A DNA stretch of 38,090 bases from Candidatus Effluviviaceae Genus V sp. (GTDB lineage: Bacteria; Joyebacterota; Joyebacteria; Joyebacterales; Joyebacteraceae): NCBI GenBank assembly GCA_014728125.1, contig WJMD01000100.1:1-38090 (forward strand), given 5' to 3'. Every line of letters starts with the position of its first letter. Position 1 is the stretch's first letter. The notes beneath the pieces are model-generated. The model searched no databases and was not told where the DNA came from. It saw only the letters and a list, made by a program, of their open reading frames with translations. The position numbers were made by a program, and so were the translations under genes. Below, in pieces: positions 4,443 through 37,859 of this stretch.

Positions 4443-5462
4443 GTGAGGTTCGCCGTTCCGACAGACGTGCTCATCGTGTGGCTCCTGGCCGTGCCGGTCG
4501 TCGCGGCGATCGTGCTGGCCGCCGCGGGGCTCGCGATCAGACGCAGGGCGCGCGAGCGCTTCGCCGAACCCGAGCTCATGGCCCGGATCGCGCCCGGAGC
4601 GTCGCTTCAGAGGCTGCGTCTGCGGCTCGTCCTCCTCGTGCTGGCGGTCGTCTTCCTCGGTCTGGCCGCCGGCCGGCCCCAGATCGGCACGAAGCTCGGC
4701 GTGGCCCGGCGCGTCGGCGTCGACCTCCTCATTGCCCTCGACGTCTCCGATTCCATGAGGGCGGAGGACCTCAACCCCAACCGGCTCGAACGGGCCAAGC
4801 GCCAGGCGCTCTCGCTCATCGACCTCCTGAAGGGCGACCGCGTGGGCGTCGTCGTCTTCTCGGGCGAGGCGTTCGTGCAGTGCCCGCTCACTCTGGACTA
4901 CGGCGCCGCCACGATGCTACTGTCTGCCGTGCAGCCGGGAACGCTCGAGCGTCCCGGAACGGCGCTGGGAGAGGCCATCGAGACCTCGAGGGAGGCGCTC
5001 TCGACGGAGCCAGACCGCTCGAAGGTGCTCGTCGTGATGACCGACGGCGAGGACCACGGGTCGGAGCCGGTCGAGGCGGCAGGTCGCGCCGCCGAGGCGG
5101 GGATCCGGATCTACACTATCGGGTTCGGGTCGTCGAGCGGCGAGCCGATCCCGCTCGACTCGGCGCAGGGCGGCGGCTACAAGCGGGACAGCGACGGCGA
5201 CGTCGTCATGTCGAGGCTCGACGAGGCGACGCTGATGGAGGTCGCGGAGGCCTCAGGCGGCCGCTACTTCCGGGCGAGCAACACCGACAGGGAGCTCGCC
5301 GTCATCGAGGAGGAGCTCTCGAAGATGCAGCAGGGAGAGCTCGAGTCGCGGATGATGGCGTATTACGAGGAGCGCTATCAGATCCCGCTGGCGGTCGCGC
5401 TCTGCTTCCTGGCGGCCGCGACCTTCATCCCGGAACGGGTGCGAACGAAGGAGGACGCCTGA
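4443..5462 (+). CDS. batB: BatB, VWA-domain membrane protein
   Basis: This 339-residue paralogue of the preceding gene product has spans at about 10-32 and 60-77 and a VWA domain from about 94. The metal site reads DVSDS (100-104), still matching DxSxS, and VVMTDGED lies at about 197-204. A C-terminal span (about 314-328, IPLAVALCFLAAATFIP) ends the protein. The family phrase QCPLTLDYGAA (147-157) is shared in form with BatA. The GTG at 4443 follows a GGAGG-type site. Its TGA shares one base with the batC ATG (5462). Confidence 0.92.
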   Translation: MRFAVPTDVLIVWLLAVPVVAAIVLAAAGLAIRRRARERFAEPELMARIAPGASLQRLRLRLVLLVLAVVFLGLAAGRPQIGTKLGVARRVGVDLLIALDVSDSMRAEDLNPNRLERAKRQALSLIDLLKGDRVGVVVFSGEAFVQCPLTLDYGAATMLLSAVQPGTLERPGTALGEAIETSREALSTEPDRSKVLVVMTDGEDHGSEPVEAAGRAAEAGIRIYTIGFGSSSGEPIPLDSAQGGGYKRDSDGDVVMSRLDEATLMEVAEASGGRYFRASNTDRELAVIEEELSKMQQGELESRMMAYYEERYQIPLAVALCFLAAATFIPERVRTKEDA

Positions 5463-6214
5463 TGGCGCGCAGGAACCGACGGCCCGTCGCCGGGCCCGCG
5501 CTCGCGTCCGGTGTGCTGGTGTTCGCGACCGTCGTCGCGCTCGCGTCTCCGGCGGCCGCCTTCTTCGGAGAGTCGGCCCCCGGACACAACCGCGAGGGTA
5601 ACGAGCACTACGCTGAGGGCCGGTACGAGGAGGCGCTCGAGGCCTACCGGTCCGGGCAGGTACTCGCGCCCGAGCTGCCGGAGCTCTCGTTCAACGCCGG
5701 CGACGCGCTCTACCGGCAGGGCCGGGTCGAGGACGCGATCCGCGAGTTCCGTCGGGCGGCCGCCGAGGCCGACTCGTCGCTGGCCTCGAAGGCGTACTAC
5801 AACGCCGGCAACGCGTTCCTCGAGGCGGGCGACCTCGAGCGCGCCATCAACGCCTACCGGCGCTCGCTGCTTGAGGACCCGTCGGCGACGAAGGCCAAGT
5901 ACAACCTCGAGCTCGCGCAGCTCATGAAGCAGCAGCAACAGCAGCAACAGCAGGACCAGGAGCAGCAGCAGGACCAGCAGCAGGACCAGCAGCAGGACCA
6001 GCAGCAGGACCAGGAGCAGCAGGACCAGGAGCAGCAGAACCAGGGGCAGGATGGCGAGGCGGAGCAGCAGAAACCCCAGCCGGCCGAGGGAGCGATGAGT
6101 CCCGAGGACGCCGAGCGTCTCCTCGACGCCATCGCGGAGGCCGAGAAGGAGCTTCAGGAGGAGCTCAGGGCCGCGCGGGCCAGAAAGAGGGAGAAGGTTG
6201 AGAAGGACTGGTAG
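5462..6214 (+). CDS. batC: BatC, TPR protein with Gln/Asp-rich linker
   Basis: The protein has 250 residues. A hydrophobic signal or anchor segment (about 11-33, ending SPAAAF) precedes TPR-like repeats (about 42-150) with motifs such as GNEHYAEGRYEEALEAY and YYNAGNAFLEAGDLERAINA. A low-complexity segment of Gln, Asp and Glu follows (157-196). The last part is an acidic and basic helix with DAERLLDAIAEAEKELQEE. TPR plus Q-rich tail is characteristic of BatC, which probably scaffolds the BatA/BatB VWA domains. The frame is open far upstream of 5462, but the ATG next to the batB stop gives the signal peptide and is the correct start. A TTG start for batD lies inside its 3' end. Confidence 0.9.
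   Translation: MARRNRRPVAGPALASGVLVFATVVALASPAAAFFGESAPGHNREGNEHYAEGRYEEALEAYRSGQVLAPELPELSFNAGDALYRQGRVEDAIREFRRAAAEADSSLASKAYYNAGNAFLEAGDLERAINAYRRSLLEDPSATKAKYNLELAQLMKQQQQQQQQDQEQQQDQQQDQQQDQQQDQEQQDQEQQNQGQDGEAEQQKPQPAEGAMSPEDAERLLDAIAEAEKELQEELRAARARKREKVEKDW
5930..6050 (+). repeat. batC: CAG-rich coding repeat in batC
   Basis: About 120 bases are built from variants of the 12-base unit CAGCAGCAGGAC, encoding QQQD, with insertions of GAG and CAA codons. The array encodes roughly 40 residues of Gln with regularly spaced Asp and Glu. Its length is a multiple of three and it stays in frame. Such an array is prone to slippage, so its length may vary between strains. Confidence 0.9.
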
Positions 6215-7985
6215 CGTGCTCACAGTCACAGTGCTCGCCGCGCTGCTCGCGGCGAGCGTGGCGTCGGCCGACGACATCGAGGTCTCGGCCTCGGTCGACC
6301 GAACGACCGTGGAACTCAACGGTCGCCTCGGTTACACGATCACGGTCGAGGGCACGATGCGGAGCGTTCCGGACCCGAAGCTGCCGGAGCTCGAGCCCGC
6401 GTTCACGGTCTACTCCTCCGGTTCCTCGACGAACATGAGCTGGGTCAACGGGCGGATGAGCTCGTCGAAGACCTGGCGCTTCACGCTCGTGCCGCAGAGC
6501 ACGGGGCCCTTCACGATCGGGCCCGCCGAGGTCGAGTTCGGCGGGTCGGTCTACCGCACCGAGCCGATCGAGGTCGAGGTCGTCGGGAGTTCGCCGGTCA
6601 GGAGCGACCGGCCGGAGGAGGAGCGCGAGCCGACCGGCGCGGAGCCGGGCGGCCGCGACGTCTTCATCACGACGTCGGTCGACAAGGAGCGCGCGTACGT
6701 CGACGAGCAGATCACGCTCTCGTTCCGGTTCTATCGCCGCGTCGCGCTCTGGGACCAGCCGCGCTACGAGGCGCCCGAGGTGACCGGCTTCTGGGTGGAG
6801 GACCTGCCGGGAGAGGACCGGTTCACCGAGACGATCGACGGGAAGCGGTACGAGGTCATCGAGCTTCAGACGGCGCTCTTCGGCGCCGCGTCCGGGACCG
6901 CGACGATCGGTCCCGCCAAGCTCGCCTACCGTCTGGAGGGGGAGCCGTTCACCTTCTTCTCACGGCCGGGGCGTGAGCGTCTTCTCGAGACAGACCCCAT
7001 CGAGGTCGAGATCCTCCCGCTCCCGTCGGAGGGGCGTCCCGAGGTCTTCGACGGGGCGGTCGGCTCCTACGGACTCAGCGCGGCGCTCGAGACGAACGAG
7101 GTCGCCGCCCTCGACCCGGTCACCCTGACCGTGACCATTCAGGGCACGGGGAACATCAGCACCGTGCCGGCCCCATCGCTTCCTGAGCTTCCCGACTTCA
7201 GGATCTACGAGTCCGGGACCTCGTCGAGCACGTCGAAGGAGGGCGGCGTCGTCCGCGGCCGCAAGTCCTTCGAGTACGTTCTGGTGCCTCAGGCCGAGGG
7301 CACGCGGACGATTCCCGCACTCGAGCTCGCCTTCTTCGATCCGGAGACGGGATCCTACCGGACCGTCCGGACGGAGCCGCTGACGCTGACCGCCACTGAA
7401 CCGTCCGAGGCGGCGGACGCGGGGACGGGGGCGGTCCGCTCAGGCATAACGCGGGTCGGACGGGACATCCGCTACATCCGCGAGCCCGACGGCGTGCTCG
7501 AGGTCGCGGCGGCCCCGGTGCACAGACGTCCCGCCTTCCTCTGGCTGCAGCTCATCCCCGCAGGCGCCATCGTCGCGGCCTGGATGTACCGCAGGCGCCG
7601 GGACCTCTTCGCGGCCGACCGCGGTCTGGAGCGCTACGTTCGGGCTCCGGGGCGGGCGCGGAGCGAACTCAAGGAGGCGCGGCGCCTTGTCGACGCCGGG
7701 GACGTGTCCGGGCTCTGTACGACGCTGGCGCGCGTCACGGTCGACTTCCTGGCGGACAGGCTGTCGATCCCGGCGCGCGGCATGACGATGCGCGAGCTCG
7801 AGTCGGCGCTGCGGCGGGCCGGCGTATCGGACGACGTGACCGACTGCGTCAGGCGGCTCTTGAGCGAGTGCGACCTCGGGCGGTTCGCGGCGGGGAGCGA
7901 GAGCGTCGACGCACGGCGCCTTCTCACCGACGCCGAGCGGTGCCTCGCCCTCATCGAGAGACAGTCTTCGAGGAGGAGGCGCTGA
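6198..7985 (+). CDS. batD: BatD, large extracytoplasmic protein with C-terminal membrane span
   Basis: The 595-residue protein starts with a signal peptide (RRTGSVLTVTVLAALLAASVASA). It then has tandem beta-sandwich modules typical of BatD/DUF11-like oxygen-tolerance proteins: phrases VDRTTVELNGRLGYTITVEG and NEVAALDPVTLTVTIQGTGN mark two copies. A membrane span is near 446-462, followed by a cytoplasmic helical tail (ARRLVDAGDVSGLCTTLARV). The TTG at 6198 is preferred over the GTG at 6216 because it supplies the arginine-containing n-region and follows a GAGGGAG site. It overlaps batC by 17 bases. The usual name is BatD, oxygen tolerance protein; its binding partners are not known from sequence. 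Confidence 0.88.
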   Translation: MRRTGSVLTVTVLAALLAASVASADDIEVSASVDRTTVELNGRLGYTITVEGTMRSVPDPKLPELEPAFTVYSSGSSTNMSWVNGRMSSSKTWRFTLVPQSTGPFTIGPAEVEFGGSVYRTEPIEVEVVGSSPVRSDRPEEEREPTGAEPGGRDVFITTSVDKERAYVDEQITLSFRFYRRVALWDQPRYEAPEVTGFWVEDLPGEDRFTETIDGKRYEVIELQTALFGAASGTATIGPAKLAYRLEGEPFTFFSRPGRERLLETDPIEVEILPLPSEGRPEVFDGAVGSYGLSAALETNEVAALDPVTLTVTIQGTGNISTVPAPSLPELPDFRIYESGTSSSTSKEGGVVRGRKSFEYVLVPQAEGTRTIPALELAFFDPETGSYRTVRTEPLTLTATEPSEAADAGTGAVRSGITRVGRDIRYIREPDGVLEVAAAPVHRRPAFLWLQLIPAGAIVAAWMYRRRRDLFAADRGLERYVRAPGRARSELKEARRLVDAGDVSGLCTTLARVTVDFLADRLSIPARGMTMRELESALRRAGVSDDVTDCVRRLLSECDLGRFAAGSESVDARRLLTDAERCLALIERQSSRRRR

Positions 7986-9902: not shown

Positions 9903-10699
9903 GCTTCCTCGATGACATGACGCTGGGACGCTACTACGCGTCGGGCTCGGTCGTCCACCGGCTCGACCCGCGGGTCAAGCTGCTGGGGCTTCTCGTCGTG
10001 CTGGCGGCCGCGCTCGTGACGAGGGACCCGTGGGCGTACGCCTTCCTGACGGCGGCGCTCCTCTCGGTGGCCCGGCTATCGAGGCTGCCGGGCTCGTACA
10101 TTCCGAGGAACGTCTGGGCGCTCAAGTGGCTGCTCGTGGTCGTCCTCGTCATGCACGCGCTCCTCGCCGAGGGAACGCCTCTGGCGTCGTGGGCGCCGTG
10201 GCTGTCCGTCGAGGGGCTCACGACGGGAGCCGTCTTCGCCTGGCGGGTCGGCCTGATGGTGGCGTCGGCCACGCTCCTGACCGCCACGACGACCCCCGTC
10301 GATCTGGGTGACGGGCTCGAGACGTCGCTCGGGTCCCTCTCGCGGATCGGCATCCCCGTGCACGAGCTGGTGATGATCTCGGTCATCGCGCTCAGATTCG
10401 TGCCGACCCTGCTCGACGAGGCGCGCCGCATCATGAAGGCGCAGATGGGGCGAGGCGTCGAGTTCTCGGGCGGTCCGGTCGCGCGGGCGAGAAGCGCCGT
10501 CCCGGTGCTCGTGCCGCTCTTCACGGGGGCCTTCCGCCGGGCCGACGACCTCGCGCTGGCCATGGAGGCACGCTGCTACCGGGGAGCGGAGGGTCGCACG
10601 AAGTACCGGGAACTCCGGCTCGGACACGCGGACGCCGCCGCGCTCCTGCTGACGGGAGGGATCCTGGCGTGCACGATCGCCATCTCAAGCTGGTCGTAG
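9899..10699 (+). CDS. ecfT: EcfT-type transmembrane subunit of an ECF transporter
   Basis: The 266-residue integral membrane protein is the energy-coupling transmembrane subunit of ECF vitamin or metal transporters (CbiQ family). Hydrophobic spans lie at about 27-42, 46-58, 76-90, 112-130 and 156-170, with a last span near 242-262. The two arginine motifs that contact the ATPases are visible as AQMGRG (181-186) and MEARCYRG (222-229). The RLDPRVKLL motif near the N-terminus is typical. The ATG overlaps the asd stop (9899-9902). No EcfA ATPase or S-component gene is nearby, so partners must be encoded elsewhere. Confidence 0.88.
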   Translation: MSFLDDMTLGRYYASGSVVHRLDPRVKLLGLLVVLAAALVTRDPWAYAFLTAALLSVARLSRLPGSYIPRNVWALKWLLVVVLVMHALLAEGTPLASWAPWLSVEGLTTGAVFAWRVGLMVASATLLTATTTPVDLGDGLETSLGSLSRIGIPVHELVMISVIALRFVPTLLDEARRIMKAQMGRGVEFSGGPVARARSAVPVLVPLFTGAFRRADDLALAMEARCYRGAEGRTKYRELRLGHADAAALLLTGGILACTIAISSWS

Positions 10700-17522: not shown

Positions 17523-18611
17523 ATGGGCGAGAAGGTCTTCATGAGGGGGAACGATGCCATTGGCGAGGCCGCCGTACAGGCCGGTTGCCAGTGCTACTTC
17601 GGGTACCCCATCACGCCGCAGAACGAGCTTACCGCGTACATGTCGAAGCGGATGATCGAAGAGGGCAGGGTCTTCATCCAGAGCGAGAGCGAGATCGCCG
17701 CGGTCAACATGTGCTTCGGCGCCGCGGCCGTGGGCCAGAGGACGATGACGTCCTCGTCGGGTCCCGGCATCAGCCTGAAGCAGGAGGGCATCTCGTACAT
17801 GGCCGGCGCCGAGCTGCCCATGTTCTTCGTCAACGTGATGCGGGGCGGGCCCGGCCTCGGGAACATCGCGCCGGCGCAGTCGGACTACTTCCAGTGCACG
17901 CGGGGCGGCGGCCACGGCGACTACCGTGTCATCTGCTATGCGCCCTCCAACGTGCAGGAGCTCTACGACTACACGATGCTCGGTTTCGACGTCGCCGATC
18001 GATACAGAAACCCGTCGATGATCGCGGCCGACGGCATCCTCGGTCAGATGATGGAGCCGCTGGTCCTCAACGAGTACAAGGACCCGGGCGACCTGCCGAC
18101 GAAGCAGCCGTGGCGCCTCGGCGACCCGAGCACGCCCGAGCCGATCTGGATCACGTCGGTCCATCTGGGCGAGGGCAAGCTCGAGGAACACAACCTCGAG
18201 CTCCAGAAGAAGTACGATGCGATCGAGAGAGACGAGGTGCGGTACGAGGAGACCATGCTCGACGACGCGGAGATCGTCATGGTCGCGTACGGCACGGCGG
18301 CACGTGTCGCGAAGACGGCGCTCGCCGTGGCCCGGGAAGAGGGCATCAAGGTCGGGCTCTTCCGTCCGATCACGATCTGGCCGTACCCGTACCAGCAGGT
18401 CCGCGATCTGGCCGACCGGGTCGAGAATCTCCTGGTCGTCGAGATGAGCCTGGGGCAGATGTGGGAGGATGTGAGGCTCGCCGTCGAGGGGAACGCGCGC
18501 GTTCACCTGCACGGCCGGACGGCCGGCGGCGTTCCCGTCGTCACCGAGGTCGTCGAGCATCTCAAGAAGGTCATGGCCTCGAAGGGCGACGAGATCATCC
18601 GGAACTTCTAG
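17523..18611 (+). CDS. 2-oxoacid:ferredoxin oxidoreductase alpha subunit (VorB/KorA type)
   Basis: The 362-residue protein is the alpha subunit. Family phrases GNDAIGEAAVQAGC, FGYPITPQNE (26-35), SESEIAAVN, SSGPGISLKQEG and GGPGLGNIAPAQSDY are present. In annotations this type is usually called VorB, 2-ketoisovalerate (or 2-oxoglutarate) ferredoxin oxidoreductase. The enzyme oxidises a 2-oxoacid to its acyl-CoA with reduction of ferredoxin, or runs in reverse to fix carbon. Which oxoacid is used cannot be told from sequence. The C-terminal domain (about 230-362) is the transketolase C-like domain. Confidence 0.92.
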   Translation: MGEKVFMRGNDAIGEAAVQAGCQCYFGYPITPQNELTAYMSKRMIEEGRVFIQSESEIAAVNMCFGAAAVGQRTMTSSSGPGISLKQEGISYMAGAELPMFFVNVMRGGPGLGNIAPAQSDYFQCTRGGGHGDYRVICYAPSNVQELYDYTMLGFDVADRYRNPSMIAADGILGQMMEPLVLNEYKDPGDLPTKQPWRLGDPSTPEPIWITSVHLGEGKLEEHNLELQKKYDAIERDEVRYEETMLDDAEIVMVAYGTAARVAKTALAVAREEGIKVGLFRPITIWPYPYQQVRDLADRVENLLVVEMSLGQMWEDVRLAVEGNARVHLHGRTAGGVPVVTEVVEHLKKVMASKGDEIIRNF

Positions 18612-18619
18612 GAGGAGTC

Positions 18620-19363
18620 ATGGAGAAGGTCTTCACCAAGCCGGAGGCGATGAAGCCTGAGCAGACGCTCTACTGTCCGGGATGCGGGCACGGCACCGCG
18701 CACCGGATGGTCGCGGAGCTCGTCGACGAGTTCGGGCTCAGGGAGCGGGCCATCGGCATCGCGCCCGTCGGCTGCTCCGTCTTCGCCGATCGCTACTGGA
18801 ACTTCGACGTCATCTCGGCCGCTCACGGACGGGCGCCCGCGGTGGCCACCGGGATGAAGCGGGGAAACCCCGACAGCTTCGTCATCTGCTATCAGGGGGA
18901 CGGTGACCTGGCCGCCATCGGGACCGCCGAGACGATCCACGCCGCGAACCGCGGCGAGCACTTCGTGACGATCTTCGTCAATAACGCCATCTACGGCATG
19001 ACCGGCGGACAGATGGCGCCGACCACGCTCTGCGGTCAGCGCTCCCAGACGTGCCAGCTCGGGCGAGACCCCGACATCATGGGACATCCGATCCGGGTCT
19101 GTGAGCTCGTGCGCGACCTCCCGGGCGTGGCCTATCTGGCGCGCGGCGCGGTCGACTCGCCCAAGAACGTCATTCAGACGAAGAAGCACATGAAGAAGGC
19201 GTTCCAGACGGCCATCGACGGCAAGGGCTGGAGCCTTGTCGAGGTCGTCTCCCCGTGCCCCACGAACTGGGGTATGGCGCCTCAGAAGGCGCTCCAGTGG
19301 CTTCGTGAGAACCTCCTCGAGCACTATGAACTCGGGGTCTTCAGGGACTGCGAGGCCGAGTAG
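18620..19363 (+). CDS. 2-oxoacid:ferredoxin oxidoreductase beta (TPP) subunit
   Basis: The 247-residue subunit binds thiamine diphosphate: GDGD at 93-96 and NN at 121-122 form the Mg/TPP motif, followed by YGMTGGQMAPTT. C19 and C22 in YCPGCGHG and C52 in PVGCSVF suit an iron-sulfur site, as in this family. ATG at 18620 follows GGAGGA by three bases, nine bases after the alpha stop. With the alpha, gamma and ferredoxin subunits it makes a complete four-part enzyme. The C-terminal VVSPCPTNWGM is typical of the KorB/VorA group. Confidence 0.93.
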   Translation: MEKVFTKPEAMKPEQTLYCPGCGHGTAHRMVAELVDEFGLRERAIGIAPVGCSVFADRYWNFDVISAAHGRAPAVATGMKRGNPDSFVICYQGDGDLAAIGTAETIHAANRGEHFVTIFVNNAIYGMTGGQMAPTTLCGQRSQTCQLGRDPDIMGHPIRVCELVRDLPGVAYLARGAVDSPKNVIQTKKHMKKAFQTAIDGKGWSLVEVVSPCPTNWGMAPQKALQWLRENLLEHYELGVFRDCEAE

Positions 19364-19380
19364 CAGCGTGACAAACTGAA

Positions 19381-19419
19381 CTGCCGCCGTGCGGACCCGA
19401 GAGAGCCCTGCGGCGGCAG
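19381..19419. other. Inverted repeat between beta and gamma subunit genes
   Basis: CTGCCGCCG (19381-19389) and CGGCGGCAG (19411-19419) are perfect 9-base arms around a 21-base loop. No T-run follows, so it is more likely an mRNA processing or stability element than a terminator. The remainder of this 122-base gap holds no gene that I can support. Confidence 0.55.
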
Positions 19420-19485
19420 ACGGGATGCGGACGCCCCCTGGGATGCAGCGACGGGGCGACGCCTCACGAAGCCGGGGGACTTTGG

Positions 19486-20022
19486 ATGATACATCGGATC
19501 AGATGCGCGGGGTTCGGCGGCCAGGGGATCGTCCTCATGGGCAAGCTCCTCGGGCAGGCCGGGATGATGGAGGACAAGCACACGACGTTCTTCCCGCAGT
19601 ACGGAGCCGCCATGCGGGGAGGCACGGCGAACTGCTCGGTGATCGTTTCGGATGATGAGATCGCGTCGCCGATGGTCGAGACGCCGGACGTCGCGCTCAT
19701 CATGAACGGACCGTCGCTCGTGCGATTCGAGCCGACGGTGGCGCCCGACGGCTGGGTGTTCTACAACACGTCGCTCATCGACAGGGAGGTCGAGCGCGAC
19801 GATGTTCAGGTGATGAAGGTCCCGGCCAACAACATCGCCGAGGAGGTCGGCACCGCCCGATCGGCCAATATGGTGATGCTCGGGGCCGTAGCGAAGAAGC
19901 TCGGCGTCGTGTCGATCGACTCCCTGATGGGCGCGCTCGACGTCATGCTGGCCGGCAAGGGCGACAAGATCATGGAGATGAACCGCGAGGCCATGCGGCG
20001 GGGAGCGGCCCTCGCTGAGTAG
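19486..20022 (+). CDS. 2-oxoacid:ferredoxin oxidoreductase gamma subunit
   Basis: The 178-residue protein has the gamma-domain start CAGFGGQGIVLMGKLLG, with GFGGQG at 9-14. TTFFPQYGAAMRGGTANC and SARSANMVMLGA-like phrases follow. It completes the alpha-beta-gamma-delta set. Unlike its neighbours it lies 122 bases after the beta gene, behind a hairpin, and the ATG lacks a strong ribosome binding site. Relative expression may therefore differ from the other subunits. Confidence 0.92.
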   Translation: MIHRIRCAGFGGQGIVLMGKLLGQAGMMEDKHTTFFPQYGAAMRGGTANCSVIVSDDEIASPMVETPDVALIMNGPSLVRFEPTVAPDGWVFYNTSLIDREVERDDVQVMKVPANNIAEEVGTARSANMVMLGAVAKKLGVVSIDSLMGALDVMLAGKGDKIMEMNREAMRRGAALAE

Positions 20023-29416: not shown

Positions 29417-30517
29417 GTGACGAGTGACACCTCCCGGGCGCGCTTCCAGCTGAGGCGCTTCCTGATACCAGCCGCCATCGGCGTCGGCGTGCTCATCGGT
29501 CTCCATCTCCTGCAGCCGCTGGCGCGGATGCTCCTGGTTCTCTTCGTCGCGATGCTCTTCGGCGTGTTCCTCGACGCCGCCGCGACGGGGCTCGTCGAGC
29601 GGACACGGATGCGGCGGGGACTGGCTCTCGGGCTCGCGGCGGCCGGCGTCATCGCGATCCCCGTGCTGGCCGGGTGGCTCATCGGTCCCAAGATCGGGCA
29701 GCAGGTGTCACAGCTCGTCGAGCGGCTGCCCGAGGTGTCGCAGACCGTCGAGGAGTGGCTGGCGACGCACGAGTGGGGACGCCGCCTGATCCCCGGCGGA
29801 GGCACGGGCGAGGGGCTCTCGTTCAACCTGGAGGCCGTCCGGGGCATCACGGGTTTCTTCACGACGATCATCGGCGGGGTCGTCAGCTTCTTCATCATCA
29901 TCTTCGTCGGGATCTGGCTGGCCGTCGAGCCGAGAACCTACGCGTGCGGGCTGATGAAGCTCGTGCCGCTCTCGAAGCGCGACAGGGCCTGGGAGGTCCT
30001 GAGCGCCGTCGTACGAATGCTCAGGCGGTGGCTCATCGGCCGCATCGCCGCCATGGTCTTTGTCGGCGGACTGGTCACACTCGGGCTGTCGATCGCGGGT
30101 GTCCCGTTCCCGTGGGCGCTCGGATTCATCGCCGCCGTCCTCGAGTTCGTGCCGTACATCGGCCCCTTCGCGGCGGCGATACCCGGCATCCTGATCGCGC
30201 TCGGCGACGATCCGATCAAGGCGATCTGGGCCGTTCTCGTCTACATCATCGTCCAGAGCATCGAGGGCTCCGTCGTGACGCCGCTCATCGAGCGGAGAGC
30301 CGTATCGCTCGGCCCGGCGTTCATCATCTCGTCGCAGATCATCATGGGCGTTCTCTACGGCAGCCTCGGGGTGCTCGTCGCGACGCCCCTGGCGGCCGTC
30401 GTGATCATCACCGTGCAGATGCTCTACATCGAGGACACGCTCGGTGACCCCGTGACGGTGCTCGGGGAGTCACACAAGGTCGAGGAGGAGAGATGCTACC
30501 CATCGGACCGCTCATGA
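29417..30517 (+). CDS. AI-2E-type (TqsA/UPF0118) permease
   Basis: The 366-residue membrane protein has seven or eight hydrophobic spans. A periplasmic-facing helical segment lies in the middle (QQVSQLVERLPEVSQTVEEWL). Family phrases are VPLSKRDRAWEVLSAV, PFPWALGFIAAVLEFVPYIGPF and EGSVVTPLIERRAVSLGPA. The name comes from the autoinducer-2 exporter TqsA, but many members move other solutes or ions, so the substrate is open. GTG at 29417 follows AGGAGG. Its stop lies 25 bases inside the hemerythrin gene. Confidence 0.9.
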   Translation: MTSDTSRARFQLRRFLIPAAIGVGVLIGLHLLQPLARMLLVLFVAMLFGVFLDAAATGLVERTRMRRGLALGLAAAGVIAIPVLAGWLIGPKIGQQVSQLVERLPEVSQTVEEWLATHEWGRRLIPGGGTGEGLSFNLEAVRGITGFFTTIIGGVVSFFIIIFVGIWLAVEPRTYACGLMKLVPLSKRDRAWEVLSAVVRMLRRWLIGRIAAMVFVGGLVTLGLSIAGVPFPWALGFIAAVLEFVPYIGPFAAAIPGILIALGDDPIKAIWAVLVYIIVQSIEGSVVTPLIERRAVSLGPAFIISSQIIMGVLYGSLGVLVATPLAAVVIITVQMLYIEDTLGDPVTVLGESHKVEEERCYPSDRS

Positions 30518-31062
30518 TCGAGCACCGGCTCATCGAGCGGATGATCGATCTGGCGCGGCGCGAGGCCGACCGCATCGAGAACGGCGGGCCGATCGACACG
30601 GACTTCATCCGCGACATGGTCGACTTCATGCGGACGTACGCCGACCGCACGCATCACGGCAAGGAGGAGGACATTCTCTTCCGGGAGCTCAGGGAGCGCG
30701 ACCTCTCGGACGACGACATGGCCCTTATGAAGGAGCTCGAGGAGGAACATGTCAGAGCGCGCGCGCTCGTCGGCGCGCTCGAGGGCGCAGGACTGGGAGC
30801 GGAGAGTTCGCCGGGCGGTTCCGGCGACGAGATCATCAGGACGCTCCGTGAGATCGTCGCCCTCTATCCCCAGCATATCACGAAGGAGGACGAGCGCTTC
30901 TTCCCGGCCTCCATGGGGTACTTCTCCGACGAGGAGAAGGACACGATGCTCGCGACCTTCCGTGAGTTCGACCGGGAGATGATCCACGAGAGGTACCGGG
31001 CGACCGTCGAGGGCATCGAGAGAACGCGGCCGGCCAGGAAGACGGAGCGGTCGGCCCAGTAG
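30493..31062 (+). CDS. Hemerythrin HHE-domain protein
   Basis: The 189-residue protein matches the four-helix hemerythrin-like fold. Likely di-iron ligands are H11 (IEHRLIE), H55 and E59 (THHGKEEDILF), H86 (EEEHVRAR), and H128 and E132 (QHITKEDERFF). Such proteins bind O2 or act in redox or nitric oxide sensing and iron handling. ATG at 30493 overlaps the upstream permease gene and follows AGGAGG by four bases. With the DJ-1-like and reductase genes that follow, it suggests a stress-response set. Confidence 0.9.
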   Translation: MLPIGPLMIEHRLIERMIDLARREADRIENGGPIDTDFIRDMVDFMRTYADRTHHGKEEDILFRELRERDLSDDDMALMKELEEEHVRARALVGALEGAGLGAESSPGGSGDEIIRTLREIVALYPQHITKEDERFFPASMGYFSDEEKDTMLATFREFDREMIHERYRATVEGIERTRPARKTERSAQ

Positions 31063-31082
31063 AGAGAGATGGAGGGACGTCA

Positions 31083-31607
31083 GTGGAACTCGACGGCACG
31101 CGCGTCGCGGTCCTTGCCGAGGACCTCTTCGAGGACCTCGAGCTCTTCTACCCGGCGATCAGGCTCCGGGAGGCGGGGGCCCGGGTGACGGTCGTGGGAA
31201 CTGGTGAGGATGAGTACCGCGGGAAGCACGGCCTGACGGTCAGACCCGACGCATCCATTGACGACGTGTCGCCCGACGACTTCGACGCGGTCGTCATACC
31301 CGGAGGGTATTCGCCGGACCGCATGCGGCGGCACGCGTCGCTTCTCGACTTCGTCAGGTCGCTTCACGAGCGGGGAGCCGTCGTGGCCTGGATCTGCCAC
31401 GGCGGGTGGGTGCCCGTGTCGGCGGGGATCCTCGAGGGGCGCAAGGTGACGTCGTTCTTCTCCATCAGGGACGACATGCGGAACGCCGGCGCGGAGTGGC
31501 TCGACGAGGAGGTCGTGCGCGACGGCAATCTCATCTCGAGCAGAACCCCTGCAGACCTTCCGGCATTCCTCAGGACAATCATCTCCTCGCTCGCCAAGCA
31601 GCGGTAG
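31083..31607 (+). CDS. DJ-1/PfpI-family protein
   Basis: The 174-residue protein is close in length and pattern to archaeal PfpI/PH1704. The nucleophile C105 and H106 lie in AWICHGGWV, with E17 in DLFEDLELFYP matching the acidic partner. VVIPGGYSPDRMRR, GRKVTSFFSIRDDMRNAGA and the C-terminal SSRTPADLPAF also fit. Members are described as proteases, glyoxalases or deglycases; the choice is unsettled here. It starts at GTG 31083 with a GGAGGG site upstream. Confidence 0.92.
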   Translation: MELDGTRVAVLAEDLFEDLELFYPAIRLREAGARVTVVGTGEDEYRGKHGLTVRPDASIDDVSPDDFDAVVIPGGYSPDRMRRHASLLDFVRSLHERGAVVAWICHGGWVPVSAGILEGRKVTSFFSIRDDMRNAGAEWLDEEVVRDGNLISSRTPADLPAFLRTIISSLAKQR

Positions 31608-31662
31608 TGCCCGGCGGGCCGACCTCACACGCACCACGAGCAATCGAAGGGAGGCGACGCAG

Positions 31663-32571
31663 ATGTCGCCAGACGATCCGCTTGTTCCTGAACGGCAGCT
31701 CGGCTCGACGGGCGAGCGCGTCTCCATGCTGGGTCTCGGCGGCGCGCACATCGCTCACTTCCGGGAGGACCGGGATGCGATCGAGTTCGTCCGCTCCGCG
31801 ATCGACACGGGCGTGACCTTCATGGACAACGCGTGGGAGTACCACGAGGGACGTGCCGAGGAGCTCATGGGGCGCGCGCTCGAGGACGGGTACCGGGATC
31901 GCGTCTTCCTCATGACGAAGCACCACGGACGGAACCGGGCCACGGCCGAGCGCCATCTCGAGGACAGCCTCCGGCGGCTTCGGACCGACGTCATCGACCT
32001 GTGGCAGTTCCACGAGGTCATCTACAACGACGACCCGGACATGATCTTCGCCCGCGGCGGCGGCATCGAGGCCGCCGTGGCGGCGCAGCGGGCCGGCAAG
32101 GTGCGCTACATAGGGTTCACCGGTCACAAGGACCCGGCGATCCACCGTCGCATGCTCGACACCGGGTTCGCGTGGGACGCGGTGCAGATGCCGCTCAACG
32201 TGATGGACGCGCACTTCAGGAGCTTCGAGCAGACCATACTGCCGATCCTCGAGGAGCGCGGCATCGCGGTTCTCGGGATGAAACCGCTGGCCGGCGGGCA
32301 CATCCTGGAGAGCGATACGGTCACGGCCGCCGAGGCGCTGTCGTACGTCTGGTCGCTTCCCGTGTCGACCGTCATCTCCGGCATGGACGCGATGGCGCAC
32401 CTGACGGAGAACGTGGAGACGGCGCGGGCGTGGACGGCCATGGAGCGCGGGGCGCGCGCGGAGCTTCTCTCGCGCACCAGAGACGCGGCGTCCGACGGTT
32501 CCTACGAGCCCTACAAGACGGACGTGGTCTTCGACGCCGCCATCGGACGGGAGCTTCACGGGCTGTCGTGA
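31663..32571 (+). CDS. Aldo/keto reductase
   Basis: The 302-residue protein has the AKR barrel with the catalytic tetrad D55, Y60, K86 and H117. The N-terminal strand (ERQLGSTGERVSMLGLGGAH) and GKVRYIGFTGHK are family-typical. It would reduce aldehydes or ketones with NADPH, or a related cofactor. The C-terminal segment (about 265-302) is longer and less conserved. It lies 55 bases after the DJ-1-like gene, with GGGAGGCG upstream of the ATG. A detoxification role fits the neighbourhood but is inferred. Confidence 0.9.
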   Translation: MSPDDPLVPERQLGSTGERVSMLGLGGAHIAHFREDRDAIEFVRSAIDTGVTFMDNAWEYHEGRAEELMGRALEDGYRDRVFLMTKHHGRNRATAERHLEDSLRRLRTDVIDLWQFHEVIYNDDPDMIFARGGGIEAAVAAQRAGKVRYIGFTGHKDPAIHRRMLDTGFAWDAVQMPLNVMDAHFRSFEQTILPILEERGIAVLGMKPLAGGHILESDTVTAAEALSYVWSLPVSTVISGMDAMAHLTENVETARAWTAMERGARAELLSRTRDAASDGSYEPYKTDVVFDAAIGRELHGLS

Positions 32572-32632
32572 CCGTTCCGTGCGATCGGCGATGCAGCCGG
32601 TCGCGGCCATGACGCGACCACAGGGAGGACAC

Positions 32633-32983
32633 ATGCGGACGAAGCTGGTCGTCCACGTCAACCTCGAGGACGAGGCCAGGCTGATCGAGGCGCTCGCGAA
32701 CATCCGGAACCTGCTCGACGAGGTCGGGGAGGACAGGGCCCAGGTCGTGCTGGTCGCGAACGGCGGCGTCGTCAAGCTCCTCCCGCCCGGGAAGAACGAG
32801 AAGGCCGGGGGCGTTGTCGAGAAACTGAAACGGCGTGGTGTCACGTTCAGGGTGTGCGGCAACGCGCTGCGGTACTACGAGATCGAACGATCCGACCTGC
32901 CGGATGCCTGGGAGGTCGTTCCCGCGGGCATCGTGGACATCGCGGCGCTCCAGCAGGACGGCTTCGCCTACGTCAAGCCCTGA
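32633..32983 (+). CDS. DsrE-family protein
   Basis: The 116-residue protein has the DsrE/DsrF-like fold pattern: MRTKLVVHVN, then QVVLVANGGVVKLL and VTFRVCGNALRYYEI, with C75 at the usual cysteine position. The tail EVVPAGIVDIAALQQDGFAYVKP fits COG1416-type members. Some relatives shuttle sulfur in tRNA or dissimilatory sulfur pathways; others have no known role. ATG at 32633 is preceded by GGGAGGA (32623-32629), which makes it a better start than 32579. Confidence 0.85.
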   Translation: MRTKLVVHVNLEDEARLIEALANIRNLLDEVGEDRAQVVLVANGGVVKLLPPGKNEKAGGVVEKLKRRGVTFRVCGNALRYYEIERSDLPDAWEVVPAGIVDIAALQQDGFAYVKP

Positions 32984-33055
32984 GCCAGGGGCGGCATCCG
33001 CGGGACGTTCGACGGCAGACTTCGACGACACGGTATCACAACGGAAGGGAGCAGC

Positions 33056-34219
33056 ATGGACCTCATCACCACCGGCGATCTCGGACGATTCGCATCGGCG
33101 CACGACGGGCCGAAGATCTCGATCTACATGCCGACACACCGGACGGCTCCCGACGTCAAGCAGGACCGCATCCGGCTGAAGAACCTCGTGGGCGAGGTTC
33201 AGGACCGGCTGGAGGCGTCAGATCACCGGCGGGACGAGATCACACCGATCGTCTCGCCGCTCATGAAGCTCGTGGAGAGCGACGCGTTCTGGGAGGCGCG
33301 GAGCGACGGGCTCGCGGTGCTGGCCGACGCGGACGTGATGAAGACCTACAGACTGCCCGCGTCCTTCGAGCCGGTGGCCGCGGTCTCGCCGCGCTACCTC
33401 CTGAAGCCGCTGATCGGCTTTCTCGCCACGGACTGCCGGTACTTCGTACTGGCCCTGAGCCGCAACAGCGTCCGCCTCTTCCAAGCGTCGAGACTCTCCG
33501 TCAGCGAGGTCGACCTCGAGTCCGTTCCGACGAGCCTCGCGGAGGCCCTGAGATTCGACGACCCCGAGAGCCAGCTCCAGTTCCACACGGGGACCTCGCA
33601 GTCGAGCAATGGCCCCGACCGCAGAGCGATGTTCCACGGCCACGGTGTCGGCACGGACGACGAGGAGTCGAACACGATCCGCTTTCTGAAGAAGGTCGAT
33701 AAGGGGCTCCACGACGTCCTCGCCGATGAGCACGCGCCACTGGTGCTCGCCGGAGTCAAGGACCTTCTGGCCTGCTACAGAGGGGTCAACACCTATTCGC
33801 ATCTGGTTGACGGAGAGGCCGAAGGCAACCCGGACCACATGTCGGGGAAGGAGCTGCACGAACGGACCTGGAGCATCGTCGAACCCGTTTTCCTCAAGGG
33901 ACTCAGAGAGGCCTTCGAACAGTTCGCACAGCTTCATGGGGAGCGAAGTGACCTCGCAGTCACCGGGCTCGAGGACGTCGTGGCCTGCGCGCACGAGGGG
34001 CGTGTGAGAACGCTCTTCGCGGCCCGCGGCGAGCACGTGTGGGGTACGTTCGACCCGGAGGCCGTCGAGGTCACGCGGCACGACAGCTCGACCGACGAGA
34101 ACCTCGAACTCATCGATTTCGCCGCCGTCAGAACGTTCGCCACGAGAGGAGAGGTCTACGTGGTGCCCCCGGACCGCGTTCCGGGTGACGGACACCTGGC
34201 GGCCGTTCTGAGATTCTGA
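33056..34219 (+). CDS. baeRF-type (bacterial eRF1-like) protein
   Basis: The 387-residue protein matches the bacterial archaeo-eukaryotic release factor (baeRF) families. The N-terminal ISIYMPTHRTAPDVKQDRIR (21-40) with LKNLVGEVQDRL is the hallmark of the family 3/7 type. The middle part has YFVLALSRNSVRLFQASR, and a C-terminal Rossmann-like region contains VTGLEDVVACAHEGRVRTLF and a HVWGTFDP segment. Such proteins were proposed from comparative genomics to act in ribosome rescue or stress-linked translation control; no direct assay is implied here. The stop lies nine bases from the end of the convergent pncB gene. Confidence 0.82.
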   Translation: MDLITTGDLGRFASAHDGPKISIYMPTHRTAPDVKQDRIRLKNLVGEVQDRLEASDHRRDEITPIVSPLMKLVESDAFWEARSDGLAVLADADVMKTYRLPASFEPVAAVSPRYLLKPLIGFLATDCRYFVLALSRNSVRLFQASRLSVSEVDLESVPTSLAEALRFDDPESQLQFHTGTSQSSNGPDRRAMFHGHGVGTDDEESNTIRFLKKVDKGLHDVLADEHAPLVLAGVKDLLACYRGVNTYSHLVDGEAEGNPDHMSGKELHERTWSIVEPVFLKGLREAFEQFAQLHGERSDLAVTGLEDVVACAHEGRVRTLFAARGEHVWGTFDPEAVEVTRHDSSTDENLELIDFAAVRTFATRGEVYVVPPDRVPGDGHLAAVLRF

Positions 34220-34228
34220 TGTGCGTGC

Positions 34229-35578
34229 TCAGGGAAGCTCGTCGGTGAGTGCACGGCGGGCGCTTCTGATGCTCCCGCTCAGCTCAACCGGGTAGGGGAG
34301 CATCGCGGTCTCCAGAGCGAGCAGCTCCGGCGGGAGGAGCGAGAGCTGCTCACGGCAGTGGAGCCGGGCGGCCTCGATGCCCGCAGAGGCATCTCCCACG
34401 CGTCGCCCGTCCCGCATGACGGTCGAGAGCAGTGATTCCCCGTCCGTGTCGCTGCCGGCGGGGACGATGCGGTCGCCGACCATCCGTCCGTTCTCGATTC
34501 GGCGCAGCACCTGCTTTCTTCCGGGGTAGATCGGCTTGCCGGGTGAGGTCTTGATGCGTGGAGCGTCCTGGTACAGGACCAGCTTGTAGGCGAGATCGAG
34601 GTCGGGCGCGTCCTTCGAGACCACCATCTTCGTGCCGACACCGAAGCCGTCAACGGGCGCGCCCGCGTCCAGGATGGTCCTGATCGCGTACTCGTCCAGC
34701 CCGCCCGAAACAAGAATGGAAACGTCCCGGAGCCCGCCCTCATCGAGGATCCGGCGGGTCTCCTTCGAGAGAGCGATCAGGTCGCCGGAGTCGATCCGGA
34801 CGGCCCCGACCGTGAAGTCGCTGCCCATCCTCCTGGCCAGTCTCACGACCTCCCTGACGCCGTGCAGCGTGTCGTACGTGTCCACAAGCAGTGTCGTCCC
34901 TGGGTAGATCTCCGCGAAACGGCGCAGGGCCTCGGTTTCTTTGTCGTGGGCCTGAACGTAGCTGTGGGCCATCGTCCCGACGACGGGGATGCCGTGGAGT
35001 CTGCCCGCGAGCACATTCGAAGTACCGGCGACCCCGGCGACGTACCCGGCGCGCGCGGCCATCAGGGCTGCGTCCGTCCCGTGCGCCCGCCTGGAGCCGA
35101 AGTCGACGACGTTCCGGCCGGCGGCCGCCGACACGACGCGGGCCGCCTTCGAGGCGAGGACGGAGCCCACGTGGCTCCGGTTGAGGACGATCGTCTCCAG
35201 GATCTGAGCCTCGACGATCGGCGCTTCGATCTCGATGATCGGCTCGTTCGGGAAGATGATCGTGCCGTCGCGCACCGCGCGGACGCTCCCGGTGAACCGG
35301 AGGTCGGCCAGGACGTCGAGGAACGACTGCGGGAACGCCGGGAGTGTGGCGAGGTAGTCGAGATCATCGTCGGAGAAGGCGAGATGCTCGACGGCATCGA
35401 GCGCGTCCTCGACACCGTACGCGACAATGTAGTTCCTGTTCCCGGGGAGGTCGCGGTAGAAAAGCTGGAAGACTGCCGAGCCCGTGAGCCCCTCTTCGAG
35501 ATAGGCCCTGGCCATCGTCAGTTCGTAGAGATCGGTGAAGAGCGACGGGACATCGGGGCGGCGTCCGGTCGACGTCAC
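34229..35578 (-). CDS. pncB: Nicotinate phosphoribosyltransferase
   Basis: The 449-residue enzyme makes nicotinate mononucleotide from nicotinate, PRPP and ATP in the Preiss-Handler NAD salvage route. Motifs are SLFTDLYELTMARAY (12-26), FGSRRAHG (160-167) and the phospho-histidine H205 in GTMAHSYVQAHDKE. DGFGVGTKMVVSKDAP follows in the C-terminal half. It begins at GTG 35578, overlapping the marR stop by four bases, so the two genes are translationally coupled. The protein is normal in length. Control of an NAD salvage gene by the upstream regulator is likely. Confidence 0.94.
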   Translation of the reverse strand: MTSTGRRPDVPSLFTDLYELTMARAYLEEGLTGSAVFQLFYRDLPGNRNYIVAYGVEDALDAVEHLAFSDDDLDYLATLPAFPQSFLDVLADLRFTGSVRAVRDGTIIFPNEPIIEIEAPIVEAQILETIVLNRSHVGSVLASKAARVVSAAAGRNVVDFGSRRAHGTDAALMAARAGYVAGVAGTSNVLAGRLHGIPVVGTMAHSYVQAHDKETEALRRFAEIYPGTTLLVDTYDTLHGVREVVRLARRMGSDFTVGAVRIDSGDLIALSKETRRILDEGGLRDVSILVSGGLDEYAIRTILDAGAPVDGFGVGTKMVVSKDAPDLDLAYKLVLYQDAPRIKTSPGKPIYPGRKQVLRRIENGRMVGDRIVPAGSDTDGESLLSTVMRDGRRVGDASAGIEAARLHCREQLSLLPPELLALETAMLPYPVELSGSIRSARRALTDELP

Positions 35579-36084
35579 CGCGACCGCCCGCGCGTTCTCC
35601 TGTGACTCTGGATGTCGACGTCGTCGAGCGGACCGGAGCTCACGTCCTCGGCTCCTATGAGCGAGACGATCCGCTCCAGCGTGTCGGCCATGTCCTCTCT
35701 CTTGGAGCGCGGGATCTTCCGGAGCGACGTCATGAGGGAGTTCTCGAGAGGGTGGGGCACCTTCCGCACGAGCTCCCTCCCCTTCCGCGTCATCGTGACC
35801 AGCACGCGCCTGCGGTCCTTCGTGTCCCTCCGTCGCTCGATCAGGTCCTTCTCCTCCAGGCGGTCGAGCACGCCGACGATGGTGCTTGGGCTCAGGAGCA
35901 GCGTGTCGGCGATCTGGGTCCCCGTCAACGTGCCGGCACGTTGCAGCGCGTTCAGGGTGGAAAGCTGCGGTCCCGTGATACCGTGCTCGACGGCGAGGCG
36001 CCTGGAGTGCACGGCCACCGTCCTGATGATCCTCCGTATGGCCCAGATCATCCGCTCACCGCAACCATTGCTCTTCGACGCCAT
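35575..36084 (-). CDS. MarR-family transcriptional regulator
   Basis: The 169-residue protein has a winged helix-turn-helix: GTQIADTLLLSPSTIVGVLD (55-74) with the wing RRRDTKDRRRVLVTMT. The ATG at 36084 is chosen because AGAGGA (36092-36097) sits seven bases upstream. An ATG at 36090 is only one base from that site, and one at 36147 would add 21 unrelated residues. MarR proteins bind palindromes near their own promoters and respond to phenolic compounds or oxidants. A palindrome at 36164-36180 fits this. It is cotranscribed with pncB. Confidence 0.9.
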   Translation of the reverse strand: MASKSNGCGERMIWAIRRIIRTVAVHSRRLAVEHGITGPQLSTLNALQRAGTLTGTQIADTLLLSPSTIVGVLDRLEEKDLIERRRDTKDRRRVLVTMTRKGRELVRKVPHPLENSLMTSLRKIPRSKREDMADTLERIVSLIGAEDVSSGPLDDVDIQSHRRTRGRSR

Positions 36085-36163
36085 CGGCATGTCCTCTCGT
36101 GGATGTCGGTCAGGATGCGTGGACGCTCGTCGTCGGAGTGTTGACAACGCGGCGTTCCATGTC

Positions 36164-36192: not shown

Positions 36193-36221
36193 ATAATACG
36201 TTCCTCAAAGGACTTTGTCAA
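36193..36221 (-). promoter_or_regulatory. Near-consensus promoter of marR-pncB
   Basis: Read on the minus strand, TTGACA (36221-36216) and TATTAT (36198-36193) are 17 bases apart. The -35 box is perfect and the -10 box is five of six. It is the strongest promoter seen in the window. Transcription would begin near 36186, just before the palindrome at 36164-36180. Confidence 0.7.
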
Positions 36222-36352: not shown

Positions 36353-36494
36353 ATACACGATTCCGAATCTCCACTTGCATGGTGTCGGGCTATCATGTAG
36401 TCTACCAATCATTCGATGTAGAAAGAAATGCGGTGCCCATGAGCGGGGCATGACGTTCCGGGCGGCACCGCGGGGAGACGATTGGGAGGATGCC

Positions 36495-36890
36495 ATGGAG
36501 AACATCGGCACGCTGTTCCAGACGGACGACTGGAAGAACGAGAAGCACGTCCCTGTCATCGACTGCAACGAGCCGTTCACGAAGGGCACGCCCACCCCGG
36601 TGACGGTCACGGTGGGCAAGGAGGTCGACCACCCGAACACGACGGCGCACCACATCCGGTGGATCCGGCTCTTCTTCCAGCCGAAGGACGAGAAGTTCCC
36701 GTACGAGATCGCGAACTGCGAGTTCAGCGCTCACGGTGCGTCGACCGACGGTCCCGACTCCAGCACGGTCTACACGCACCACGGCGTGACCGTGCTGATG
36801 AAGACCGACAAGCCGGGCACGCTCATCGCGATGTCGTTCTGCAACATTCACGGTCTCTGGCAGAGCACACGCGACGTCGGCGTGGAGTAG
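36495..36890 (+). CDS. Superoxide reductase (neelaredoxin type)
   Basis: The 131-residue protein reduces superoxide to hydrogen peroxide without forming O2, as in anaerobes. The active-site iron ligands are visible: H18 in the EKHVP motif (with E16 and K17), H46 and H52 in VDHPNTTAHH, and C116 and H119 in SFCNIHG. Spacing matches Pyrococcus superoxide reductase. There is no N-terminal desulforedoxin domain, so this is the one-iron form. ATG at 36495 follows GGGAGGA (36484-36490). The 142 bases upstream hold no gene and no clear promoter. A rhodanese gene follows. Confidence 0.94.
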   Translation: MENIGTLFQTDDWKNEKHVPVIDCNEPFTKGTPTPVTVTVGKEVDHPNTTAHHIRWIRLFFQPKDEKFPYEIANCEFSAHGASTDGPDSSTVYTHHGVTVLMKTDKPGTLIAMSFCNIHGLWQSTRDVGVE

Positions 36891-36989
36891 CGGAACCTCC
36901 TTCCCCCGTTGCGCATCCGAGCACGTACGGTGATACCTCGCGGCGGCTGGCGGCCGTCTGTTGACGACCCACTGGAGGAGGTAGCGAGA

Positions 36990-37859
36990 ATGAGCAGGGA
37001 ATACCCCCACGGCAGCGGCGTGGTGAAGCTCGTGTCGACCGAGTGGCTGGCTGAGCACGTCGGCGACGGAGTGGCGCTCGTTGACTGTCAGCCGAACGTC
37101 CACGATTACATCAAGGAGCACATCGCGGGCGCCGTCTACATGAACGAAGGACTGCTTCGTGTTCCGAAGAAGGGACTTCCGGCCGTCTACGCTCCGGAGG
37201 AAGCGATCCAGACGGTGTTCCGCCGTATCGGTCTCGAGGCCGACAGACCCGTCGTCGTCTACACGGGCAAGGGGCCGTTCAAAGGTTGGGGCGACGGACT
37301 CGAGCAGGTGATGGTCGCCTACTCGATGGCCCGGTTCGGCCACAACAGCGTCCATGTTCTCGACGGCGGGATAGACAAGTGGAAGTCGGAGGACCGCGAG
37401 GTCGTTCAGGCGTTCCCGAAGGTCGAGGAGAGCTCTTTCGATGTGTCGGTTCGCGACGAGTACTTCATCGCGTACGACGACTTCCGCGAGATGAAGGACG
37501 ATGACGACGTCATCCTGCTCGATGCGAGGCCGGGCGACGTCTACGAGGGTCAGGGGCCGTGGATGAAGCCGGGACACATCCCCGGAGCCGTCAACGTCCC
37601 ATGGAAGTCCTTCATGCATCCGGACAATCCCAGGCTTCTGAAGTCCGACAAAGAGATCAGGGAGATCGTCGAGCGGCACGGCATCTCGGAGGACAAGACC
37701 GTCATCTGTTCGTGCGGGACAGGACGCGAGGCGACGAACGAGTTCATTCTGTTCAAGTGGTATCTCGGGTATCCGAACGTCAGGATCTACGAGGGGTCGT
37801 TCACCGAGTGGTCGTCGTATCCCGATAATCCGACGGTGACCGGCAAGAGCCCGAGATAG
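36990..37859 (+). CDS. Rhodanese-type sulfurtransferase, two domains
   Basis: The 289-residue protein has two rhodanese domains (about 12-140 and 155-280). Only the second has the active loop, C240-S-C242[10 protein letters not shown]; the first has YTGKGPFKG in that place and is probably inactive. DARPGDVY and [11 protein letters not shown] are family-typical. It would move sulfane sulfur, for example from thiosulfate to cyanide or a thiol. The ATG at 36990 is chosen because AGGAGGT lies seven bases upstream. It precedes an MBL-fold gene, a common partnership in persulfide metabolism. Which of the two cysteines is catalytic is not decided here. Confidence 0.9.

Follow-up and report, generated by a model that had tools for sequence, protein, structure and literature searches.

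A Balon homologue in a plausible stress gene cluster of a Candidatus Effluviviaceae genome

A six-gene run and its setting

The window analyzed here, a stretch of 38,090 nucleotides from Candidatus Effluviviaceae Genus V sp. (assembly GCA_014728125.1, contig WJMD01000100.1, positions 1 to 38,090), carries at positions 29417-34219 a run of six closely spaced genes, all on the plus strand, that ends in the gene for a 387-residue baeRF protein. By sequence comparison and structure prediction, this protein is a full-length, three-domain homologue of the ribosome hibernation factor Balon, and its gene is co-inherited with neighboring DJ-1 and MarR genes. The open reading frame list and Pfam matches establish six real genes and confirm the six families named for them in the original prediction, a reading of the bare sequence that also proposed one promoter for the run and a ribosome rescue function for its last product.

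The first gene (29417-30517, plus strand; Pfam PF01594, 7.2e-43), preceded by the Shine-Dalgarno sequence AGGAGG, encodes a transporter, as the earlier label "permease" implied, and more exactly a membrane transporter of the AI-2E (UPF0118) family. It is followed on the same strand by the gene for a hemerythrin-domain protein of 189 residues (30493-31062; PF01814, 1.8e-17), in which His 11, 54/55, 86 and 128, together with HHxxxEE and HxxxE motifs, are kept and form what we take to be the ligand pattern. The DJ-1/PfpI protein (31083-31607; Pfam, 1.5e-56) exceeds the cut-off of the NCBIfam PfpI subfamily (3.4e-51) and matches the PDB deglycase PH1704 (8.7e-45), as expected of PfpI/YhbO-type proteins, but does not reach the cut-off of the equivalog for deglycase PfpI (172 versus 330 bits); its Cys105, within ICHG, presumably represents the nucleophile-Cys/His pattern of DJ-1/PfpI. 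The aldo/keto reductase of 302 residues (31663-32571; Pfam, 1.5e-34) has oxidoreductases as its PDB matches and carries DNAWEY, MTKHH and QFHE, whose Tyr, Lys and His we assume to be tetrad positions. The functional residues of these three proteins thus look intact, as judged from sequence. The DsrE-like protein (32633-32983; 116 residues; Pfam DsrE, 1.4e-6; PDB MTH1491, 4.4e-13) contains one cysteine, Cys75, and for its gene the ATG at 32633, which has a Shine-Dalgarno site, is a likelier start than the GTG given in the list (32579). The baeRF gene (33056-34219) completes the run. With the DsrE start so placed, the intergenic gaps are -25, 20, 55, 61 and 72 bases, and a purine-rich ribosome-binding site precedes every start.

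The same-strand series extends upstream through YegS, RimK-like, GNAT and Trk-like genes to the start of the window. Gene calls by codon-position GC assign almost every gene up to 34 kb to the plus strand, and the two minus-strand calls in that region (5381-6319 and 9937-10563) have the odd base pattern typical of false calls. A same-strand run is therefore expected here and carries little weight beyond chance; the six-gene run as such is little unusual. The 98 bases between YegS and the AI-2E gene are the widest gap among the last twelve genes, which makes a transcript start there plausible. The single likely promoter originally assigned to the run was not borne out, since a consensus scan of the plus strand upstream of 29417 found no sigma-70-like site and the same-strand series runs back to the window start. 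RNA structure upstream of 29417 was no more stable than that of shuffled sequences (z 0.47). The window yielded no Rfam family and no tRNA, and a search for a defense link with PADLOC gave weak matches only, with MarR alone matched. Farther upstream, at 17523-20019, lie proteins that to the eye resemble 2-oxoacid:ferredoxin oxidoreductase subunits, a likeness that we take to point to anaerobic life.

Relationship of the baeRF protein to Balon

The 387-residue protein scores best against Pfam baeRF family 7 (PF18849; 3e-48, 164 bits against a cut-off of 27.2), but families 3 (PF18845; 5e-44, 151.2 bits against 31.5) and 6 (PF18848) overlap with it and their cut-offs are likewise far exceeded, so that the family label is not exclusive. 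Its sole sequence match in the PDB is Balon (AOC03_06830 of Psychrobacter urativorans), found by phmmer as chain 8rd8_B (2.6e-17, residues 17-387); the entry is labeled a chemotaxis protein there, and for 8rd8, 8rdv and 8rdw the description given is Balon bound to the ribosome. The match covers all three domains at about 20% identity and strengthens in profile searches, to 4.9e-40 with a profile of 7 sequences and 1.8e-56 with one of 40. The mycobacterial Balon homologues Msmeg1130 and Rv2629 (8v9j, 8v9k, 8v9l) are more distant in sequence than Balon itself, the 7-sequence profile giving a weak match to Msmeg1130 (1.5e-5) and no significant match to Rv2629 (0.18). The window's genome holds one baeRF gene, and one HPF gene on another contig.

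An AlphaFold model of the protein, of moderate confidence (pLDDT 70.9, pTM 0.52) and weak in the C-terminal domain, points the same way. Its six best fold matches are Balon chains (Z 19.3 to 12.5), those of Msmeg1130 and Rv2629 included (Z 14.5 to 12.5), with an rmsd of 9-11 A over about 300 residues; this large rmsd leaves the placement of the domains unsure, while the assignment of the fold is clear. The eRF1/aRF1 and Pelota/Dom34 proteins share the three-domain fold, but eRF1 (Z 12.0 or less) and Pelota (Z 11.0 or less) rank below all six Balon chains, so that eRF1 and Dom34, toward which the original prediction had looked, are not the nearest structures. Identity to them in the fold alignments is 6-18%, and the 387 residues contain neither a GGQ nor an NIKS string, which sets the protein apart from these factors and is shared with Balon.

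Balon is a hibernation factor whose position was shown by cryo-EM: it occupies the ribosomal A site with EF-Tu, leaves the catalytic centre inert, and is described as lacking the release and codon-recognition motifs GGQ and NIKS (PMC10901736). According to the same account, Balon genes belong to stress operons, where RaiA is the most frequent neighbor, so that a setting of this kind is already on record for Balon (PMC10901736). The stress-gene surroundings of the window's gene are alike in this respect, but its company is DJ-1 and MarR, whereas that described for Balon genes is RaiA, Hsp20 or Osm genes. For baeRF proteins as a group, a 2019 analysis proposes a link to HPF; most families, in its view, would either regulate negatively or relieve stalled ribosomes (PMC6514570). 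A literature search in a partial library returned nothing on Balon with hemerythrin and, by title, no paper linking ribosome hibernation with DJ-1 or linking two or more of hemerythrin, DsrE and baeRF in this way.

Co-inheritance of the DJ-1, baeRF and MarR genes

Conservation was followed in 20 genomes of the family, including the window's own, within a total of 61 genomes searched for baeRF. A baeRF gene occurs in 2/20 family genomes, the relative's protein being 69% identical; DJ-1 (73% identical) and strong MarR matches (65% identical) occur in the same two, and DJ-1 and baeRF are both absent from the other 18, one of which has a weak MarR match of 75 residues. The second genus carries, on a contig of 3,590 bases, DJ-1, a gap of 20 bases, baeRF and then a convergent MarR gene. 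The aldo/keto reductase, DsrE and nicotinate phosphoribosyltransferase genes are absent from that contig, whose other flanking genes differ from those of the window and which stops about 560 bases ahead of DJ-1, leaving any genes farther out unseen. The relative's genome, which is 90% complete, yielded neither hemerythrin nor DsrE; within the family, DsrE is confined to the window's own genome, as is hemerythrin, apart from a weak match of 23% identity in another. That another genus also has DJ-1 and baeRF side by side exceeds chance. From these comparisons, the co-inherited core is DJ-1, the Balon homologue and MarR, and the remaining genes of the run appear to be local company. The three core genes are neighbors in more than one genus, in 2/20 family genomes, and were not seen so outside the family. 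A conserved linkage, as first proposed, therefore holds for DJ-1 and extends to a MarR gene beyond the six-gene run, but fails for hemerythrin and DsrE in the family genomes and in the 92 further loci described below, and for the aldo/keto reductase on the relative's contig and in those loci.

In the window, baeRF and MarR are separated by a nicotinate phosphoribosyltransferase gene (34229-35578, minus strand; Pfam, 3.1e-35), which is not the case in the relative. This gene and the MarR gene overlap by 4 bases and are likely on one transcript. The MarR family regulator (35575-36147, minus strand, with a likely start nearer 36090; Pfam MarR 3.1e-14, MarR_2 1.9e-15) has a single cysteine, Cys29, and the relative's MarR has a cysteine at the same place. 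Ahead of it stands a candidate sigma-70-like promoter (36193-36221, minus strand; TTGACA-17-TATTAT, 11/12), the only such site found, where 0.8 is expected by chance. Divergent from MarR is a gene of the desulfoferrodoxin/superoxide-reductase type (36375-36890, plus strand, with a likely start near 36495; TIGR00332 2.1e-28, Pfam 2.4e-29). As a separate observation, this gene is followed by one for a two-domain rhodanese (together 36375-37859), so that an oxygen-defense theme continues past the six-gene run.

Loci elsewhere were scanned by six-frame phmmer (E 1e-3). Of 97 examined, 93 showed baeRF and one of these is the family relative, leaving 92; flanks were about 5 kb on each side for 60 cyanobacterium-like loci and about 6-10 kb for the others, some being cut by contig ends. 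The sample is lopsided because the sixty loci were all taken from the relatives of a single genome, G341 (143 of 388 genomes had a match and 60 places were taken), which is cyanobacterium-like by a reading of its neighbors. DJ-1 occurred in 1/92 loci, 2.15 kb off on the other strand; MarR in 1/92 (weak, 7 kb off); GNAT in 1/92 (3 kb off); and HPF beside baeRF in 3/92, two of them near-identical Algoriphagus loci. An AI-2E gene lay directly downstream of baeRF in 2/92, on a Spirosoma plasmid (47 bases) and at L080 (264 bases), too few for a claim. A Pfam census of 79 of 111 neighboring open reading frames, with most short frames excluded, as were the duplicates arising from a pair of near-identical loci, found no family in more than two members; it shows the 25 commonest families, so that single matches of the target families are not readable from it. 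Three tiny phyla (3, 4 and 7 genomes) added nothing. A baeRF match was present in 18 plasmid records; eight of these were viewed, and the seven annotated at the locus named no hemerythrin, DsrE or DJ-1. Three plasmid loci are recorded for their own sake: Spirosoma oryzicola (L067, 5605-8332) has HPF, a Balon homologue and an AI-2E transporter in series; a Nitrobacter plasmid has baeRF with a universal stress protein and a DNA starvation/stationary phase protection protein; and Rubrobacter radiotolerans (L065, 8010-9152) has, adjoining a CopG/PIN pair, a Balon homologue of 45% identity, the nearest of those found beyond the family.

A hibernation role and its alternatives

Our preferred reading, which we regard as probable while leaving appreciable room for doubt, is that the baeRF protein is a Balon-type hibernation factor encoded at the end of a stress cluster with a DJ-1, baeRF and MarR core. 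The Balon homologue would most likely bind idle or stalled ribosomes at the A site, probably acting with EF-Tu and compatible with HPF/RaiA, and would keep ribosomes inert until stress ends. We infer that the run is co-transcribed and under MarR control, such that an oxidant or reactive carbonyl sensed by MarR, with its single Cys29, would relieve MarR repression; DJ-1 would then repair or detoxify while ribosomes are parked by the Balon homologue. Around this core the genome may have gathered hemerythrin for buffering of O2 or NO/iron, the aldo/keto reductase for aldehyde reduction, the DsrE-like protein for sulfur transfer, and the transporter. The role originally suggested from the gene's company, translation control during oxygen, aldehyde or sulfur stress, is supported as a likely one.

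Several results weigh against this reading. The NCBIfam Balon model NF052287 (AOC03_06830 family RHF, equivalog) gives 166.5 bits (1.1e-48), below its cut-off of 330 bits, and the protein is for that reason called a Balon homologue and not filed as an equivalog. Ala31-Pro32 aligns with the presumed HP motif of Balon, a motif of the decoding centre whose place in the sequence is itself inferred, with Ala where Balon has His, and none of 85 other aligned relatives has His there. The loop on the side of the peptidyl-transferase centre has 40 residues as against 26 in Balon, with a motif of its own that has no counterpart in Balon. Comparison of palindromes and 14-mers found no operator shared by the MarR and DJ-1/AI-2E upstream regions. 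Finally, in the 92 other loci an aldo/keto reductase gene was near baeRF once, 4 kb off on the other strand, and hemerythrin and DsrE were never near it, by single-query phmmer searches that miss distant relatives of both. Those counts, with the near-absence of both genes from the family, led us to reject a conserved hemerythrin/DsrE/baeRF operon.

They also lend weight to the view that the factor is of the Balon type but its company accidental, a long same-strand stretch having gathered unrelated, separately regulated accessory genes, as the strand bias from 1 to 34 kb and the lack of a clear promoter upstream of the run would likewise suggest. We consider this possible but rather unlikely, because another genus keeps DJ-1 and baeRF side by side, together with MarR, and the remaining 18 genomes have neither DJ-1 nor baeRF. 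That the protein instead rescues or releases stalled ribosomes, in the manner of Dom34/Pelota or eRF1, we judge improbable. Such a role would agree with the 2019 proposal of stalled-ribosome relief and with a conserved loop in this clade, given that the same analysis describes the loop of inactive baeRF families as poorly conserved (PMC6514570). Hibernation is nevertheless the better reading, because the protein stands closest to Balon by sequence and fold, above eRF1 and Pelota; GGQ is lacking, and the window's protein has His, not Gln, at position 196. The ribosome rescue originally proposed is accordingly outdated, the nearest relative being a hibernation factor described as devoid of release and codon-recognition motifs.

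The loop itself, which ends in F-H-G-[Q/H]-G, precedes the long helix of the middle domain (residues 160-200; window 33533-33655). In an alignment of 86 relatives scoring at least 100 bits, the window's protein included and Balon excluded, His194 is kept in 75/86, Gly195 in 84/86 and Gly197 in 79/86, and position 196 is Gln or His in 75/86 (Gln 53, His 22); part of this conservation is kinship, because related cyanobacterium-like sequences dominate the alignment. A quick protein tree pairs the window's protein with its family relative (100), and deeper joins are unsure. Judged by the order of structural elements, and not by a residue alignment, the loop would occupy the place of the GGQ loop of eRF1; a PDB profile search intended to align the two did not have eRF1 among its matches. 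It is a highly speculative idea, to which we give very little credence, that this Balon clade, common in the sampled cyanobacterium-like genomes and patchy elsewhere, may act differently on the peptidyl-transferase centre, for example as a conditional release factor or as an oxidant- or carbonyl-sensitive lock that the DJ-1 partner repairs or reverses.

The preferred reading, a Balon-type hibernation factor in a plausible stress cluster, is ordinary in kind and adds a modest further example. It replaces the guess of ribosome rescue with a hibernation role that can be tested, in a phylum (Candidatus Effluviviacota) that has been little studied and is apparently anaerobic, and it draws attention to a conserved loop in a Balon clade that Balon does not share. 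The small co-inherited set of DJ-1, Balon homologue and MarR could couple the parking of ribosomes to the sensing of redox state or carbonyls.

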